A stretch of DNA of 34,041 bases, taken from contig DATKAB010000002.1 in assembly GCA_035498555.1 (NCBI GenBank), positions 1 to 34,041 of the forward strand, given 5' to 3'. The position numbers were made by a program, and so were the translations under genes. Below, piece after piece: positions 19 through 29,170 of this stretch. This DNA comes from Candidatus Sulfotelmatobacter sp. Lineage in GTDB: Bacteria > Eisenbacteria > RBG-16-71-46. The notes beneath the pieces were generated by a model. It saw only the letters and a list, made by a program, of their open reading frames with translations, searched no databases and had not been told where the DNA came from. How positions within the stretch are numbered: position 1 is the stretch's first letter; each line of letters begins with the position of its first letter.

Positions 19-552
19 TCAATTCCCGTTGCGGGCGAGCGCCGCCTTGATGCGCACGATCTGCAGCCGATGCCGCTCCTCGTGGTACGCGAGGAAGCGA
101 AGCATCTCCGGCATCGAGAGCAGTCCGAAGATCGGATGGCGCAGCCGGTAGCTCCACAGATTTCGGCGCTCGCCCTCTTCGATGGCGCACAGCAACCGCG
201 CGCGGCTCGCCGCCAGCAGCGCCATGGATTCGTCGCGCGGCAGCGCCCGTTCGGGATCGAAGGCCGGCCGGGTCTTGAACGGCACCACCTTGTAGAGATT
301 GCTGGAGTAGAGCAGGCGTCGCAGCGAGTCGGAGCCGAGCTTCTTCGCCCGGAGCCTTCCGGCGTTGCCGGCCTCGATGCCGCGCGCGATGCCCTCTTCG
401 GAGGCGGCGAGATGCTGGATCGCCTGCGACACCGACCAGCCGCCGCCCCGCGGAACTTCGCCGAATCGTGGATCCTGCAGGCCCTCGACCTCGGCGAGCA
501 GCCGCCGCCGCGCCGAGTCCAGCTCGGCCAGCACCGACTCCACGCGCTTCAT
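19..552 (-). CDS. DinB-fold protein, putative metal-dependent hydrolase or transferase
   Basis: A 177-residue four-helix-bundle protein of the DinB/YfiT type; its substrate cannot be told from sequence. Three histidines fit the usual metal site: H47 in the AIQHLAASEEG helix, and an HxxxH pair near 157 and 161 (AYHEERHRLQ). The MKRVESVLAEL start at the ATG (552) is preferred. A GTG at 594 would add 14 residues and overlap the end of murB by about 23 bases, while the ATG lies 19 bases after the murB stop and has GGAG about 14 bases upstream. It is probably co-transcribed with murB. The family includes thiol-dependent transferases and stress proteins, so only the fold is claimed. Confidence 0.75.
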   Translation of the reverse strand: MKRVESVLAELDSARRRLLAEVEGLQDPRFGEVPRGGGWSVSQAIQHLAASEEGIARGIEAGNAGRLRAKKLGSDSLRRLLYSSNLYKVVPFKTRPAFDPERALPRDESMALLAASRARLLCAIEEGERRNLWSYRLRHPIFGLLSMPEMLRFLAYHEERHRLQIVRIKAALARNGN

Positions 553-571
553 GCCCGTGTGGATCGCTCCT

Positions 572-1573
572 TCATCTCGCAACCTCGGCGCCACCCACGC
601 GGACCTCGGGCCGCTCGCCCAGGAACATGACCTCTTCCTCCAGCTCGACGCCGAATCTCTCGCGCACCCGGCGCTTCATCTCCGCCGCCAGCTCGAGCAC
701 GTCGCCGGCGGTGGCGTGGCCGACGTTCACGATGATGTTGGCGTGCTTCGCGAATACCTGCGCGTCGCCCATGCGCAGGCCGCGGCAGTCGCATTCATCG
801 AGCAGCTGCCCCGCCGCGACGCGGCGCGTTCCGGGAGACAGCTTGCCGCCCGGCATCTGCCAATCGGGCGGCAGGTTCTTGAAGTAGGAGCCGGCGGTGG
901 GCTCGATCCGCCACTGCGGGTGCTTCTGGCGGCGGATTTCGAGCTTCTCCTCGATCTCCCTTCCGATCGCCGCGCGATCGCCCTCGCGGAACTGGAGCAG
1001 CACGGTGAGCAGAACCTTCGGCTCGCGCTTGAGGCGCGAGTCGCGATAGGCGAACTCGTACCATCCGGCCGGTCGCGTCTCGACCAGCGTGCCGCCCGGA
1101 TCCACATGCGTGCACTCGAGCGTGTAGTGGCCGATGTCGTCGCCGTAGCAGCCGGCGTTACCGTACAGCGCACCACCCACCGAGCCCGGAATCCCGGCCG
1201 CGAACTCGAGCCCCGCGAGCGAGCGGTCGCGGCACTGATAGATCAGCTCGAGAAAATCGGTGCCACAGCCCACCTGCGCCACCGTCCCGTCGAACTCCAC
1301 GTCGGTGCAGGAATTCTTGAGAACCAGCCCGCGGAATCCCTCATCGGAAACCAGGAGGTTGCTGCCGCCGCCAAGCAGGAAAACGGGCACGCCGCTCTCG
1401 CGGGCGGTGCGGAGCGCCGTGACCACCAGATCGGGAGTCCGTGCCGCGAAGAAGAAATCGGCCGGCCCTCCGATGCGGAAGGTGGTGTGGTGCTTCATGG
1501 GCTCTTCGGTGAGAAGCCCGTCGCCGAGGGCGCGGCGCAGCCGATCGAGAGTCGAGGCAGCTGGCTTGAGCAT
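572..1573 (-). CDS. murB: UDP-N-acetylmuramate dehydrogenase (MurB)
   Basis: Reduces UDP-GlcNAc-enolpyruvate to UDP-MurNAc with NADPH and FAD in the cytoplasm, the second committed step of peptidoglycan synthesis. The 333-residue protein shows the FAD-binding stretches TFRIGGPADF (31-40), LLGGGSNLLVSDEGF (66-80) and GLEFAAGIPGSVGGALYGNAG (121-141). The YRDS motif holds the active-site Arg (R177), AGSYFKN the catalytic Ser (S229), and the C-terminal LEEEV the conserved Glu. An insertion of about 15 residues separates FKN from AGQLLDE, compared with the usual FKNP-x-AGxLIE spacing. The ATG at 1573 is chosen over a GTG four codons upstream. murB stands apart from the usual mur/ftsZ cluster here and is followed by a DinB-like gene. 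Confidence 0.95.
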   Translation of the reverse strand: MLKPAASTLDRLRRALGDGLLTEEPMKHHTTFRIGGPADFFFAARTPDLVVTALRTARESGVPVFLLGGGSNLLVSDEGFRGLVLKNSCTDVEFDGTVAQVGCGTDFLELIYQCRDRSLAGLEFAAGIPGSVGGALYGNAGCYGDDIGHYTLECTHVDPGGTLVETRPAGWYEFAYRDSRLKREPKVLLTVLLQFREGDRAAIGREIEEKLEIRRQKHPQWRIEPTAGSYFKNLPPDWQMPGGKLSPGTRRVAAGQLLDECDCRGLRMGDAQVFAKHANIIVNVGHATAGDVLELAAEMKRRVRERFGVELEEEVMFLGERPEVRVGGAEVAR

Positions 1574-1617
1574 CGAGTGGCGCACGTTCGCTCAAGGGCG
1601 AGCGCGCGTCAAACCTG

Positions 1618-1646
1618 TTGGAGCGCCGGCCGGCGACCGATACAAT
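1618..1646 (+). promoter_or_regulatory. Sigma70-type promoter of the selenoprotein gene
   Basis: TTGGAG (1618-1623) and TACAAT (1641-1646) are separated by exactly 17 bases. The -10 box matches 5 of 6 consensus positions. The predicted transcript would start near 1653, about 29 bases before the ATG at 1682, and includes GGAGG at 1673-1677. It lies in the short region between murB and this gene, which diverge. Confidence 0.55.
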
Positions 1647-1681
1647 CCGTGCGGGCGCGCGCTCACACTTTCGGAGGCGCA

Positions 1682-1900
1682 ATGAAACTCGAGATCACCT
1701 ACTGCGGTCAGTGAGGCTATTTACCCCGCGCCGCCAGTCTGGCGGCGGAGATCAGGAAGGTTCGGGACCTCGAACCTTCACTCATCAAAGGCAGCGGCGG
1801 CGTTTTCGAGGTGGTGCTCGACGGCCGGCTGATCTTCTCGAAGAAGCAGCTGGGGCGTTTTCCGGAGTTGAGCGAGCTGCTCGAGAAGATTCCGGCCTGA
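1682..1900 (+). CDS. SelW/Rdx-family selenoprotein (CGQU redox motif, UGA decoded as selenocysteine)
   Basis: Reading from the ATG at 1682 gives 10 residues ending in YCGQ, then an in-frame TGA at 1712-1714, then 61 more residues in the same frame to a TGA at 1898-1900 (72 residues in all). The continuous product starts MKLEITYCGQ-U-GYLPRAAS and contains SGGVFEVVLDGRLIFSKK followed by GRFPEL. That is the Rdx (SelW/SelT/SelH) thioredoxin-like fold: a beta strand, CxxU/CxxC loop, helix, GGxFEVxxDG hairpin and FPE. C8 and U11 form the redox pair. A promoter, a GGAGG ribosome site 4 bases before the ATG, a SECIS-like hairpin after the TGA and a terminator after the second stop all bracket the 72-codon frame. 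The family is thought to act as a thiol redox protein; its partner is unknown. The genes selA, selB, selC and selD are not in the window. A normal gene caller would split or miss this gene. Confidence 0.87.
1729..1747 (+). promoter_or_regulatory. Bacterial SECIS-like hairpin for UGA recoding
   Basis: Bases 1729-1736 pair perfectly with 1740-1747 (8 base pairs, mostly G-C) around a 3-base loop, or 7 pairs around AGTCT. The loop lies about 22 bases after the UGA at 1712-1714, inside the reading frame. Bacterial SECIS elements are known as a short stem-loop downstream of the UGA with a G near the start of the loop. The AGUCU loop resembles the AGGUCU loop of Escherichia coli fdhF. Function as a SelB-binding site is inferred. 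Confidence 0.6.
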
Positions 1901-1904
1901 GGCG

Positions 1905-1935
1905 GCGGAGCGCCGGCGACTCGGGGGCGCTCCGC
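1905..1935. terminator. Bidirectional terminator hairpin between convergent genes
   Basis: A perfect 10-bp inverted repeat (1905-1914 with 1926-1935) around an 11-base loop fills the gap between the selenoprotein stop and the stop of the convergent membrane-protein gene at 1936. There is no long T tract, which is common in GC-rich genomes. Confidence 0.6.
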
Positions 1936-3156
1936 TCACCTGCCGATCAGCTGCAGCAGCTTCTCCAGGATCTGAACCACCGGCACGACGGCGGACAGCG
2001 GCGCCAGCATCGGACCGAGCGCCGCGACCACCAGCAGCGCTGCGATGCGGGGCGTGACCAGGATGACCCTCATCTGCGCCACGCGCTGGAAGCTGCCACC
2101 GATGTCGGCAAGCGACTGGACGTCTCCACTCCCGAGCAGCATTTCGCCGGATGCCTGCACGCGGTCGCCTTCCGAATTCCGGCTCGCCGATCGCCCGAGC
2201 CACTTGTGATCGAACGCCCGGACGTAGTCGTCGGCGAGATCGCCGTAGTCGAGCAATCCCTTGAAGCGCGCGCGACCGAGGGCCGGCGAAAACACCATCA
2301 ACGGCCCCAGGAACAACAGCGCCGCGATCACGACGAACGCGCCGATCGCCCACTGGCTGGTCTCGAGCGTTTCGCCGAAATACAGCATGCGGGTGGCGAC
2401 CGCGCCTCCCAGCGTGATGGAAAACGCCGCCACCACCAGATTCAAGCCGATCGCGGCCTCTGACAACACGCCGAGCCCTCCCACTCCGTCGGGGTGGGTC
2501 GGGATCAGCTCGAGATCCAGGCCGGCGATCCGTCTGAGGAACCTCCCCCACAGGAAGATTCGCCACAGCCATCGCATCGCCAGCACCAGGAAGATCGGGA
2601 GGCTCACCAGCGTGTACCACCAGCCCGCGGCGGTGAGATGAGACTGCTCGGCGCCGCCCAGCCAGCCGGTGACCACGCTGGGCACCCCCTGAGTCACCTC
2701 GAGCCAGGCGAGCGCGACCACGAGGGTCAGAATCACCAGCTCCGGTAGCCACGAATCGCGCGAACGATTGAGGCGGGAGAGCGCGCGGTCGAACTCGCTT
2801 CGCTTGCCGGCGGGGATCACTCCCCCCTCCACGAGCCGGGAGATCGCAGCGCCGAGGCGAGCGTCGATCGCCGGACCCGCGAGGATGAGCAGAGGCACCG
2901 CCACCAGGAACCGGCAATAGGCACGCACGTCCTTCAGGAATGGAATCGTGACGTGATCGCCGATCGCGAGATGATCCTTGAGCGACAGCAGCAGAAGCGG
3001 CAGCCAGCCGATCAGAGGCAACAGGAATGCAGCGATCACCGCGCGCCGGCCCTCGGGCTCGAGGCCGATCTTCTTCAGAACCCAGAACACGGCGCCGCCT
3101 CGCGACAGAGCGAATTGGATGGGCGCTCCAGCCTGCTGCGCGCGCGTCTCACTCAT
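1936..3156 (-). CDS. Multi-pass inner-membrane protein of unknown function
   Basis: A 406-residue protein that I do not recognise. About seven hydrophobic segments are visible, near residues 36-57, 78-95, 136-155, 178-200, 236-256, 268-292 and 374-396. A short conserved-looking loop LIPTHPDGVGGLGVL (around 215-230) precedes the fifth segment and may be a family signature. A soluble stretch (roughly 300-370) precedes the last segment. The ATG at 3156 (MSETRAQQ) with GGAG 11 bases upstream is preferred to a GTG at 3183. It ends at the shared terminator with the selenoprotein gene. There is no signal peptide and no transporter or enzyme motif I can name. Confidence 0.7.
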   Translation of the reverse strand: MSETRAQQAGAPIQFALSRGGAVFWVLKKIGLEPEGRRAVIAAFLLPLIGWLPLLLLSLKDHLAIGDHVTIPFLKDVRAYCRFLVAVPLLILAGPAIDARLGAAISRLVEGGVIPAGKRSEFDRALSRLNRSRDSWLPELVILTLVVALAWLEVTQGVPSVVTGWLGGAEQSHLTAAGWWYTLVSLPIFLVLAMRWLWRIFLWGRFLRRIAGLDLELIPTHPDGVGGLGVLSEAAIGLNLVVAAFSITLGGAVATRMLYFGETLETSQWAIGAFVVIAALLFLGPLMVFSPALGRARFKGLLDYGDLADDYVRAFDHKWLGRSASRNSEGDRVQASGEMLLGSGDVQSLADIGGSFQRVAQMRVILVTPRIAALLVVAALGPMLAPLSAVVPVVQILEKLLQLIGR

Positions 3157-11601: not shown

Positions 11602-13395
11602 GTGGCCAAGCCGCTCGAGGACGAGCCCATCGCCCAGGGCGCCGAGATCATCGACGCCACCTTTCACCGCTACTTCCTGCACCAGCGCGAGATCGTTCGC
11701 TGCGCGCGCGCCAACTTCGAGCGGCGCGACTGGCATGCGACCCAGCGCGATTCGGCCGCGCGGCTCGATCTCTACAACGAATCGGTGCGCGAGGGGCTCG
11801 ATCTGCTCCATGGTCTGCTCGGGCCGCGCTTCGCCGACGCCGACACCTGGATCGAGCTGCGGAACGCCTATGCCGATCGCATTGCCGGGCGCGGCGATCG
11901 CGAGGTGGCGGAGACCTTCTTCAACAGTTTCACGCGCCGGATCTTCCACACCGTCGGCGTCAATGGCGAAATGGAGTTCGTCTCTCCTCCCGCCGAGCAT
12001 CGCGGGGCTCCAGGTGCTTCCGGCGCGGCCGCCGGTGATTCGGCGCTGGTCGCGCGCTTCGATCGCCGCGGCTCGCTGGCGCAGCTGTTCGCCGAGGTGT
12101 TCGCCCACTACGAGTTTCGCGTGCCGTGGGATGACGCCGCGGGCGACGCGGGTCGCATTGCCGACGAGATCGCGCGCGGCCTCGGCGACGTCGCGCCCGA
12201 GGCGATCCGCGGGCTGACGCTGGCGGAGCCGGTGTTCTTTCGCGGCAAGGGCGCCTATCTGGTCGGCGAGCTCCTCACCGAGGGCGAGTCGCTGCCGCTG
12301 GTGCTCGCCCTGACCAACCCCGAAGGTCGCGTGGTGGTGGACGCCGTGCTGGTCTCGCGCGACGAGGTCAGCATCGTGTTCAGTTTCGCGCGCGCCTACT
12401 TCTTCGTGGACGTGGATCGGCCGCACGAGCTGGTCGAGTTCTTGCACGCGATCATGCCGCACAAGCCGATCGCCGAGCTCTACAACGCGATTGGCTGGAA
12501 CAAGCATGGCAAGACCGAGCTGTATCGCTCGATCCTCCACCATCTCGCCACGACCGACGACCGCTTCGAGATCGCTCCCGGCCAGCGCGGCATGGTGATG
12601 TGCGTGTTTACGCTGCCCGGCTTCGACGTGGTGTTCAAGGTGATCCGCGACCGTTTCGAGCCACCCAAGACCGTCACCGCCGAGGAGGTGAGACGCAAGT
12701 ACCGCCTGGTCTTCCGCCACGATCGCGCCGGCCGGCTGGTGGACGCGCAGGAGTTCGAGCACCTCGAGTTCGATCGCTCGCGCTTCGATCCCGTGTTGCT
12801 CGAAGAATTGCTGGCGCTCTGCTCCGAGCGCGTGCGCCTCGACGGCGATCAGGTGGTGATCGCGCACCTCTACACCGAGCGCCGGCTGCGCCCGCTCGAC
12901 GTCTACCTGCGCGAGGCCTCGCCGGCCGCGGCGCGCGAAGCGGTGGTGGACTACGGGCAGGTGATGCGCGACCTCGCCGCCACCAACATCTTTCCCGGCG
13001 ACATGCTCACCAAGAACTTCGGCGTGTCGCGCAACGGGCGCCTGATCTTCTACGACTACGACGAGCTGTGCCGGCTCGACGAATGCCGCTTCCGGGCGCT
13101 GCCGCCGCCGCGCAACGAGGACGACGAGTCCTCCGGTGAGCCCTGGTTCTACGTGAGCGAGAGGGATATCTTCCCGGAGGAATTCCGGAACTTCCTGGGG
13201 CTCCAGGAGGAACTGCTCGCGGTTTTCATGCAGCATCACGCGGAGCTGCTCGGCCCGGCGTTCTGGCTGCGCATGCAGGAGCTGCATGCGCGTGGCGAAG
13301 TGCTCGACGTCTATCCCTATCGATCCGCGCGCCGTTTGCGCTGGCGGGCGAGGTCCGCCGAACGGCGAGCCGACCCGATGCTACCGAGGAGCTGA
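11602..13395 (+). CDS. aceK: Isocitrate dehydrogenase kinase/phosphatase (AceK)
   Basis: A bifunctional enzyme that phosphorylates and dephosphorylates isocitrate dehydrogenase, so switching isocitrate between the Krebs cycle and the glyoxylate bypass. The 597-residue length is typical. The N-terminal regulatory half contains the family-like [16 protein letters not shown] and [19 protein letters not shown]. The kinase half has the ATP-binding Lys in [13 protein letters not shown] and the catalytic loop [14 protein letters not shown], then LIFYDYDE with the metal-binding Asp. The start is GTG at 11602, 11 bases after the phosphofructokinase stop. Its own substrate gene begins 4 bases after its stop, whereas in enterobacteria aceK follows aceBA. 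Malate synthase and isocitrate lyase are not in the window. Confidence 0.95.
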
Positions 13396-13399
13396 GAAC

Positions 13400-14683
13400 A
13401 TGAGCGTCATCCAGGGCGAGGCGATCACGCTGAAGAACGGCAGGCTCAACGTGCCGAGCCATCCGGTGATTCCGTTTATCGAGGGCGACGGCACCGGCCC
13501 CGACATCTGGCGCGCCTCGGTGCGCGTGTTCGACGCCGCGGTCGAGAAGGCCTACGGCGGCCAGCGGAAGATCGCCTGGCACGAGGTGCTCGCGGGGCAA
13601 AAATCTTTCGACCGGACCGGCAGCTGGCTGCCCGACGAGACCCTGGACGCGTTCCGCTCGTACCTGGTCGGAATCAAGGGCCCGCTCACTACGCCGGTCG
13701 GCGGCGGCATCCGATCGCTCAACGTGGCGCTGCGCCAGATCCTCGATCTCTACGTGTGCCTGCGCCCGGTGCGCTGGTTCCAGGGCGTGCCCTCGCCCGT
13801 CAAGCATCCCGAGCGGGTCGACATGGTGATCTTCCGCGAGAACACCGAAGACATCTACGCCGGCATCGAGTACGCGGCTGGGAGCGAAGAAGTGAAGAAG
13901 GTGCTCGCGTTCCTGCAGGAGAGCTTTCCTTCGTCGTTCAAGAAAGTGCGCTTCCCGGCCAGCTCGGCGATCGGCTTGAAGCCGGTGTCGCAGGAAGGGA
14001 GCGAGCGGTTGATCCGCGCGGCGGTCGAGTACGCGGTGCGCCACCAGCGGAAGAGCGTGACGTTCGTGCATAAGGGCAACATCATGAAGTTCACCGAAGG
14101 CGCGTTCCGCAACTGGGGCTACGCGCTGGCCGAGAAGGAATTCGCGGCGCAGACCTACACCTGGGAGCAATGGGAGCGCACGCGAACTGCCAAAGGCGAG
14201 GACGCCGCCAACGCCGAGCAGAAAGCCGCGCTGGCCGGCGGCAGGCTACTGGTAAAGGACGCGATCGCCGACATCGCGTTGCAGCAGGTACTGACGCGGC
14301 CCGACGAGTTCGACGTGATCGCCACGCTCAACCTGAACGGCGACTACTTGAGCGACGCGCTGGCCGCTCAGGTGGGCGGCATCGGCATCGCACCCGGCGG
14401 CAACATCAACTACCTCACCGGCCACGCGGTGTTCGAGGCCACGCACGGCACCGCGCCCAAGTACGCCAATCTCGATCGGGTGAATCCCGGCTCCGTGGTG
14501 CTGTCGGGCGAGATGATGCTGCGTTACATGGGCTGGGACGAGGCCGCCGACCTGATCATCAGGGGTATGGATGGGGCGATCGCCTCGAAACGCGTGACCT
14601 ATGATTTCGCGCGACTGATGGAAGGCGCCACCGAGATCAAGTGCAGCGAGTTCGGCGAGAACATCGTCGCGCACATGAAGTAG
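13400..14683 (+). CDS. icd: NADP-dependent isocitrate dehydrogenase
   Basis: Oxidatively decarboxylates isocitrate to 2-oxoglutarate in the cytoplasm. The 427-residue protein starts [14 protein letters not shown] at the ATG after a GAGGAG site. The substrate and phosphorylation loop [17 protein letters not shown] contains S106, the equivalent of E. coli S113 modified by AceK, in an identical context. [17 protein letters not shown] carries the Lys-Tyr pair that selects NADP, and [11 protein letters not shown] supplies the later Tyr and Arg of the same pocket. The gene follows aceK by 4 bases, so kinase and target are translated together. A hairpin begins at the stop codon. Confidence 0.96.
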
Positions 14684-27262: not shown

Positions 27263-29170
27263 CTAAGGCCGGGCCCGGGGTTCCTGCAAATCGAGCCGAT
27301 TGCCGGGCAGGTCGGCCACCGCGAGGCGCCCGTCCTGCAGCGTCAGCACCGGCGCGTAAGGCCCGCGCGGCATTCGCGTCCACCACGCGCCGGTCGCTCG
27401 GCGTTCGGCCGCAGTGGTGAAGTGATAGAGATAGACGGTGGCGCGCAAGTAGCGCGGTGGGGCGTCGGGAAATGGATTCCTCGCCATCAGCTTGAGCACC
27501 GGCTTCGAGCCCTGCAGCAGGCGTTCGCAGAAATAGAGCAGCCACGAGTTCTGGCGCAGATCGCCGAGCGCCGCGAACCACATCTGCCAGTCGAGGCGTG
27601 GCATGTGCGGCGCCACGAACTCCGGACGGCGATCGAGTGCGCCCGGCTTCCAGCGGAACTCGTACGAGCGCCAGATCTCGCCGTCGTTGCTGCCCTCGAT
27701 CACGATCTCGGGGCGCTCGGTGGTCATCACCGCGAACAGGCCGTACGAATTGACGACGCGGAACGGCGCCGTGATTTCGTACGCCGAGGGCAGTGGCCCC
27801 AGCAGCTTCATCGGCCAGCGCAACGCTCCCCATAGCGGCACCAGCCCGAGCAGCGCGAGCGCGAGCGCGAGCGGGCGCCGGATCCAGCGGCTGGCAACCG
27901 TGGGTTCGCCCGCCCCGCTTTCGGGGAGCGAGATGCCGAGCGCGCGCCGCAGCCATGCCGGCCACACACCGTCATCGAACATCGGGATCACCAGCGCCAT
28001 CGCCAGCGGATTGAAGAAGCCGTAGTTGCCGGTGATCACGATCAGCGCCTGGAGCGAGAGCATCGCAATGGCGCCCGCGAAGCGGATCCGGCGCGGCGCC
28101 AGGATCAGGAACGGCGCCAGCCCTTCGATCGCGAACATGACACCGGTCGAAAAGGTCTGGAACGCGTCCGGCAGATGATGCGCCCACCACGCCGTCCACG
28201 GCGGAAGCGGCTGCGTCTGGTAGTGGAAACGCAGCGCGGTGAGATGGCGCCAGTTGGGATCGTGGCTGGTGAGCTTCACCACCGCGGAGGAGAACATGAG
28301 CCGGAAGAGGAGCCAGCGCAGCAGCCACAGTCCGCTCTTCGCCGGCGCGGGATCGGCGGCGGGGAGCGCGAGTGGGCGCCAGCGCCCGATGAACAGCGAG
28401 GCCACCACGGTCTCGATCAGCAGGCCGTCCCACTGAAACCACAGGAACTCGCGCGCCACCGAGGCCAGCGACAGGTAGCAGGCCGCGATCGCCAGCAGCG
28501 CCGGAATCTCGAACACGCCGAGCATCAGCGCGAGCGACGCCGCCGTGCCGATCGCGCACAGCGCATGGAGCGCGCGATCGCTCGCATCGAGCCAGCAGAG
28601 CGACGGCACCGCCAGCGCGATGCCCGCTCCGTAGCGCTGGCGCAGCTGCCCGATGAATTCGGCCGTGGGGAGGATGCCCTGCCTCCCGATCAGGCCGATT
28701 ACCTGGACCCAGAGCGACAGAAACGCCGACACCGAGATCGCTCCCAGCGCGCGCAGGAAGATCCACGCCGTGAGCCGCTGTCCGGGCGGCACGAGATACT
28801 TCCCCCACACCCGCGAAGTGACGCTGGTGAAGAACGGACGATTGCGAGCGATCACGCCGTAGACGGCGTCGCTCGCCAGCTTGAACGGCAGGAAGTAGCG
28901 ATAGAGCCACCACCACGCGGCGCGCCCGGGCGAATAAGCCAGCGTTCGGAACACCGCCGCCGCGCCGCCGCGCCAGGTGCCGTCGGCCTCCCGCAGCTGC
29001 ACCGCTTCGGCAAAGCGCGAAAGCGGCACCTCGGGGAAGCGCGACGACACCGATTGCGCCGGCGCGTAATCCACGGTGTCGCCGGTGACGCGCTGCCAGC
29101 GCTCGATCCAGCGCTTGCAGAAGCCACAGTTGCCGTCGAAGAGCATCAGCGGCCGTTCGGGAGCGCCCAT
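27263..29170 (-). CDS. DCC thiol-disulfide domain fused to a lipase-maturation-factor-like membrane protein
   Basis: A 635-residue fusion. Residues 7-120 are a DCC (DUF393) thioredoxin-like domain, with LMLFDGNCGFCKRW giving D12, C15 and C18. The rest is a lipase maturation factor (LMF) domain with about ten membrane segments. KLTSHDPNWRHLTALRFHYQ and TQPLPPW are the family's hallmark. The later soluble part has FRVVNSYGLFAVMTTERPEI and RLDWQMWFAALGD. In animals LMF1 is an ER protein needed for folding of lipases. A bacterial role in disulfide or folding of exported proteins is inferred. No lipase is adjacent. No Shine-Dalgarno sequence precedes the ATG; a TAGAAT box ends 6 bases upstream. 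Confidence 0.88.
   Translation of the reverse strand: MGAPERPLMLFDGNCGFCKRWIERWQRVTGDTVDYAPAQSVSSRFPEVPLSRFAEAVQLREADGTWRGGAAAVFRTLAYSPGRAAWWWLYRYFLPFKLASDAVYGVIARNRPFFTSVTSRVWGKYLVPPGQRLTAWIFLRALGAISVSAFLSLWVQVIGLIGRQGILPTAEFIGQLRQRYGAGIALAVPSLCWLDASDRALHALCAIGTAASLALMLGVFEIPALLAIAACYLSLASVAREFLWFQWDGLLIETVVASLFIGRWRPLALPAADPAPAKSGLWLLRWLLFRLMFSSAVVKLTSHDPNWRHLTALRFHYQTQPLPPWTAWWAHHLPDAFQTFSTGVMFAIEGLAPFLILAPRRIRFAGAIAMLSLQALIVITGNYGFFNPLAMALVIPMFDDGVWPAWLRRALGISLPESGAGEPTVASRWIRRPLALALALLGLVPLWGALRWPMKLLGPLPSAYEITAPFRVVNSYGLFAVMTTERPEIVIEGSNDGEIWRSYEFRWKPGALDRRPEFVAPHMPRLDWQMWFAALGDLRQNSWLLYFCERLLQGSKPVLKLMARNPFPDAPPRYLRATVYLYHFTTAAERRATGAWWTRMPRGPYAPVLTLQDGRLAVADLPGNRLDLQEPRARP

Follow-up and report, generated by a model that had tools for sequence, protein, structure and literature searches.

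SelW-like selenoproteins in prokaryotes

SELENOW-like proteins with a CxxU motif (pfam10262) are listed among the prokaryotic selenoprotein families (PMC9312934), and in the Global Ocean Sampling data the SelW-like proteins formed the most abundant selenoprotein family, with 427 selenocysteine (Sec) versus 56 cysteine forms (PMC2398784). In Epsilonproteobacteria, the SelW genes were completely missed in annotation (PMC4607533). The locus described here shares with the prokaryotic SelW-like selenoproteins the CxxU motif, the Rdx domain and a UGA at the second redox position, and differs from them in its host alone, Candidatus Eisenbacteria. SelW-like CxxU (Rdx) selenoproteins are thus an established prokaryotic family, and what is new here is the host group. 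A literature search returned no paper linking Eisenbacteria with selenoproteins or selenocysteine.

A SelW-like reading frame continues across an in-frame TGA

Within the window, i.e. the whole stretch of 34,041 nt that was analysed, the ATG (1682-1684), the internal TGA (1712-1714) and the genuine stop TGA (1898-1900) share one reading frame on the forward strand. The features of this region are:

1682..1900, + strand: gene for a SelW-like selenoprotein of the Rdx family, 72 codons and a stop, with the CGQU redox motif (profile scores, homologues, model)
1712..1714, + strand: in-frame TGA, predicted Sec codon, residue 11 (aligned column TGA in 77 and TGT in 1; Cys in the solved 2fa8 and 2oka)
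365..1714, + strand: spurious ORF of 449 aa with a TTG start, ending at the Sec TGA and antisense to murB

The first-pass annotation had proposed a hidden SelW/Rdx selenoprotein gene with an in-frame UGA at this position, a proposal that is supported by profiles, homologues, sel genes and fold. We hold it close to certain that 1682-1900 encodes a 72-residue bacterial SelW-like (Rdx) selenoprotein. UGA at codon 11 would be decoded as selenocysteine by SelB and tRNA-Sec(UCA), directed by a SECIS hairpin that lies in the coding region itself, 22 nt past the UGA, and Cys8/Sec11 (CxxU) would be the likely redox centre of a thiol/selenol oxidoreductase. The gene is a real gene of a type often overlooked by ordinary gene finders, and the long spurious frame expected from a standard caller does exist as the TTG ORF listed above.

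On readthrough the 72-residue product reads MKLEITYCGQUGYLPRAASLAAEIRKVRDLEPSLIKGSGGVFEVVLDGRLIFSKKQLGRFPELSELLEKIPA. It scored 71.2 bits against Pfam Rdx (PF10262; cut-off 22.6, E = 8.7e-20, positions 1-72 of 74) and 62.3 bits against TIGR02174 (curated cut-off 34.2). When the whole genome was searched in six frames, the Rdx match spanned the TGA at E = 1.2e-16 and was the only Rdx match. These two profile scores and the match across the TGA indicate that the gene is not due to chance. The profile NF041051 (SelTWH_Campy, SelT/SelW/SelH family (seleno)protein) aligned over residues 4-70 with 86 bits (E = 1.6e-24), just under its equivalog cut-off of 88 bits, and the product was therefore not filed under this equivalog.

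As had been claimed, the TGA occupies the second redox position of the CxxU/CxxC motif (C8-G-Q-U11). In the Cys-containing SelW-related proteins 2fa8 and 2oka, aligned residue by residue, CxxC stands at the place of CxxU, with Cys for Sec.

The internal TGA is conserved among homologues

Of the 99 genomes searched, which include the one under study, 36 carry the gene, with one internal TGA in 35 of these and none in G095. Since the query carried Cys at the Sec position, the homologue search was not biased towards TGA. Together with contig loci, the genome set yielded 78 distinct sequences from many phyla, among them Candidatus Eisenbacteria, Planctomycetes, Gemmatimonadetes, Acidobacteria, Nitrospinota, Cyanobacteria, Actinomycetota, Anaerolineae, Proteobacteria and others. 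All four of the closest named relatives belong to Candidatus Eisenbacteria, which puts the organism of the window in that group by inference. The aligned codon was TGA in 77 of the 78 sequences and TGT (Cys) in the remaining one (L101). Homologues with Cys at position 11 had been named as a check on the selenoprotein reading, and Cys or TGA was indeed found there. Relatives with an ordinary stop and no coding conservation beyond it, named as the refuting case, were not seen among the homologues. The terminal stops of the 78 sequences were mixed (TGA 39, TAG 31, TAA 8).

Past the TGA, differences to 14 relatives fell on codon positions 1/2/3 in the numbers 254/172/377, as in coding DNA, and the flanks of the same relatives diverged without a codon-position pattern. 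Two genomes with a clear gene of the TGA type also have another, weak Rdx-like match containing one TGA (G007:C139:6225-6374 and G027:C16:48823-48981), which is a candidate only.

Selenocysteine machinery of the genome

The search for selA, selB, selC and selD suggested by the first-pass annotation detected all four in the same assembly, a 219-contig draft (100% complete, 0.58% contamination): selA with 540 bits, selB with 339 bits in a 649-aa ORF whose C-terminal part was also matched, the tRNA-Sec gene (selC) with a UCA anticodon with 66.8 bits, and selD with 354 bits. The latter is located at L020:3954-5009 (G000:C81), with the adjoining tRNA-Sec gene just downstream on the same strand. The sel genes are spread over contigs C77, C81 and C140 and are joined to the SelW-like gene on C2 by assembly membership alone. 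Moreover, selD has its own single in-frame TGA, in the motif SCAGUASKVGP, aligned to the catalytic Cys of the solved structure 3u0o. The genome therefore encodes at least two UGA-containing selenoprotein genes plus a full bacterial decoding set. It is very probable that selenocysteine occurs in at least two proteins of Candidatus Eisenbacteria, the SelW-like protein and SelD, and annotation may miss or truncate both, as it did SelW in Epsilonproteobacteria.

Across the genome set, selA was found in 31 of the 35 genomes with the TGA form versus 35 of the 64 others (Fisher p = 7e-4), and the four TGA-form genomes lacking it are 65-86% complete. No selA was found in the genome carrying the Cys form.

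Sequence alone cannot tell which residue is inserted at a UGA, which leaves room for another decoding, either because the codon is reassigned genome-wide, for instance to Trp or Gly, or through non-specific read-through that inserts a standard amino acid. We consider this very improbable, as TGA also serves as the terminal stop of this gene and of half its homologues, selD likewise has a single TGA at a catalytic Cys position, the residue found in homologues is Cys and not Trp or Gly, and tRNA-Sec and selB are present. On these grounds, genome-wide reassignment was rejected. The apparent stop at 1712-1714 is almost certainly read as selenocysteine.

A predicted SECIS hairpin lies within the coding sequence

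Bacterial SECIS elements are described by a loop of 3-9 nt, an upper stem of 4-16 bp, a G in the first two loop positions, a loop 16-37 nt after the UGA and an MFE of at most -7.5 kcal/mol (PMC13188914). All of these rules apply to the following element, which has G first and then U in its loop and folds with -14.4 kcal/mol as the hairpin alone:

1729..1747, + strand: bacterial SECIS hairpin (predicted) with a stem of 8 bp, CGCCGCCA/UGGCGGCG, and the apical loop GUC (1737-1739) beginning 22 nt past the UGA

For the present gene, the hairpin geometry stood out against synonymous-codon shuffles (p = 0.013), which keep the protein and draw the codons from the homologues. For this single GC-rich sequence, total MFE was uninformative against the same shuffles, and the hairpin was not unusual compared with dinucleotide shuffles (z about -0.8). 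Support for the SECIS comes instead from the codon bias in the loop and from hairpin geometry over the homologue set, the former being the strongest sign. At gathering thresholds, the window gave no match to any Rfam family. Among the homologues, 59 of 77 reached the bSECIS rule versus 15.7 expected from synonymous-codon shuffles; some close relatives (L024, L027 and L030) gave no unbroken hairpin that reaches -7.5 kcal/mol.

Where the residue at +8, specified by the loop codon, is Ser, its codon was AGT in 56 of 57 cases, compared to 13 of 255 later Ser codons of the same genes (Fisher p = 6e-48, a value inflated by shared ancestry, with the bias spanning many phyla). This demonstrates an RNA-level constraint at the SECIS that is independent of the protein. 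The homologue set thus provides a protein-neutral SECIS test, with one Ser codon being AGT in 98% versus 5% elsewhere. The remaining loop codons in Eisenbacteria, GGT (Gly) and AGG (Arg), change the residue but retain the loop G; the second position of the loop codons AGU, GGU and AGG is always G. Stem positions where wobble base faces wobble base still pair in 55 of 57 and about 50 of 57 sequences (the two upper pairs) and in about 40 of 57 (the lowest pair). As these pairs vary too little, we make no strong claim of covariation.

The SECIS-bearing segment of the product, RAASLAAE, corresponds to RAGWMAQE and RAAWLAQE in 2fa8 and 2oka. Because the aligned Cys forms drop the motif, this highly conserved peptide and the near-exclusive AGU Ser may owe their conservation to the hairpin rather than to catalysis, so that the SECIS would dictate part of the SelW-like protein; we regard this as an evenly balanced proposition.

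Cys homologues such as L101 exist and TGA is one base away from TGC or TGT, so that a Cys-type Rdx gene turned into a pseudogene, or an assembly error, might be envisaged. This explanation was rejected and retains only a minimal probability: the conservation of TGA at the same codon in 77 of the 78 distinct sequences, drawn from many phyla, already refutes it, and both the conserved reading frame after the TGA and the SECIS-like constraint on the loop codons speak against it as well.

Predicted fold and proposed function

An AlphaFold2 model of the SelW-like selenoprotein, computed on 26 of the family proteins with Cys for Sec, reached a pLDDT of 94.4 and displays the thioredoxin-like order beta-alpha-beta-beta-beta-alpha, in which CxxU sits between the first strand (3-8) and the first helix (14-28). 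The best matches among solved structures were bacterial SelW-related proteins (TM 0.82-0.88), followed by MIEN1 and mouse SelW (2npb, TM 0.72). The Cys-containing bacterial SelW-related proteins 2fa8, 2oka, 2obk, 2ojl, 2p0g and 3dex have the same fold as the product. Invariant in the alignment are Y7, C8, Sec11, Y13, A17, L20 and K54. The product is likely a small thiol/selenol oxidoreductase with a Cys8/Sec11 redox pair; selenium insertion itself, the redox activity and the partner are steps that we infer. To our knowledge, the bacterial SelW-like family has no established physiological substrate.

Plain termination at the TGA, with the short peptide MKLEITYCGQ as product and the downstream frame untranslated, is where a standard gene caller would stop (1712), but this was rejected as having virtually no likelihood, since divergence over the 60 codons that follow is biased to the third position and the confidently predicted Rdx fold depends on the downstream part.

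Flanking signals and neighbouring genes

The SelW-like gene stands alone, divergent from murB, and is flanked by:

1673..1677, + strand: GGAGG ribosome-binding motif situated 4 nt upstream of the ATG (sequence itself)
1900..1941, + strand: GC-rich hairpin past the stop that lacks a T-tract and might be a terminator or a processing structure (folding energy -28.3 kcal/mol, z -2.4)
572..1585, - strand: murB, divergent neighbour (Pfam MurB_C, 94 bits)

Regarding the expression signals assigned to the gene by the first-pass annotation, the ribosome-binding site was recovered as the GGAGG motif. The promoter was not: no sigma-70-type match was present in 1400-2200, a consensus that may not be that of this phylum. 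The terminator stayed unsupported as well: the strong hairpin at about 1900-1941 has no T run and was not called by the terminator scan.

The gene downstream in the window was not found near the homologues in the flanks examined. In tblastn searches of MurB against the flanks, murB adjoined the SelW-like gene as a divergent neighbour in most family members with flank available. Elsewhere in the window, positions 11602-14683 (+) encode AceK (isocitrate dehydrogenase kinase/phosphatase) followed by an overlapping gene of the isocitrate/isopropylmalate dehydrogenase family, and positions 27263-29170 (-) encode a bacterial protein in which lipase maturation factor (LMF1) domains are joined to a thiol-disulfide oxidoreductase domain of the DCC1-like type.
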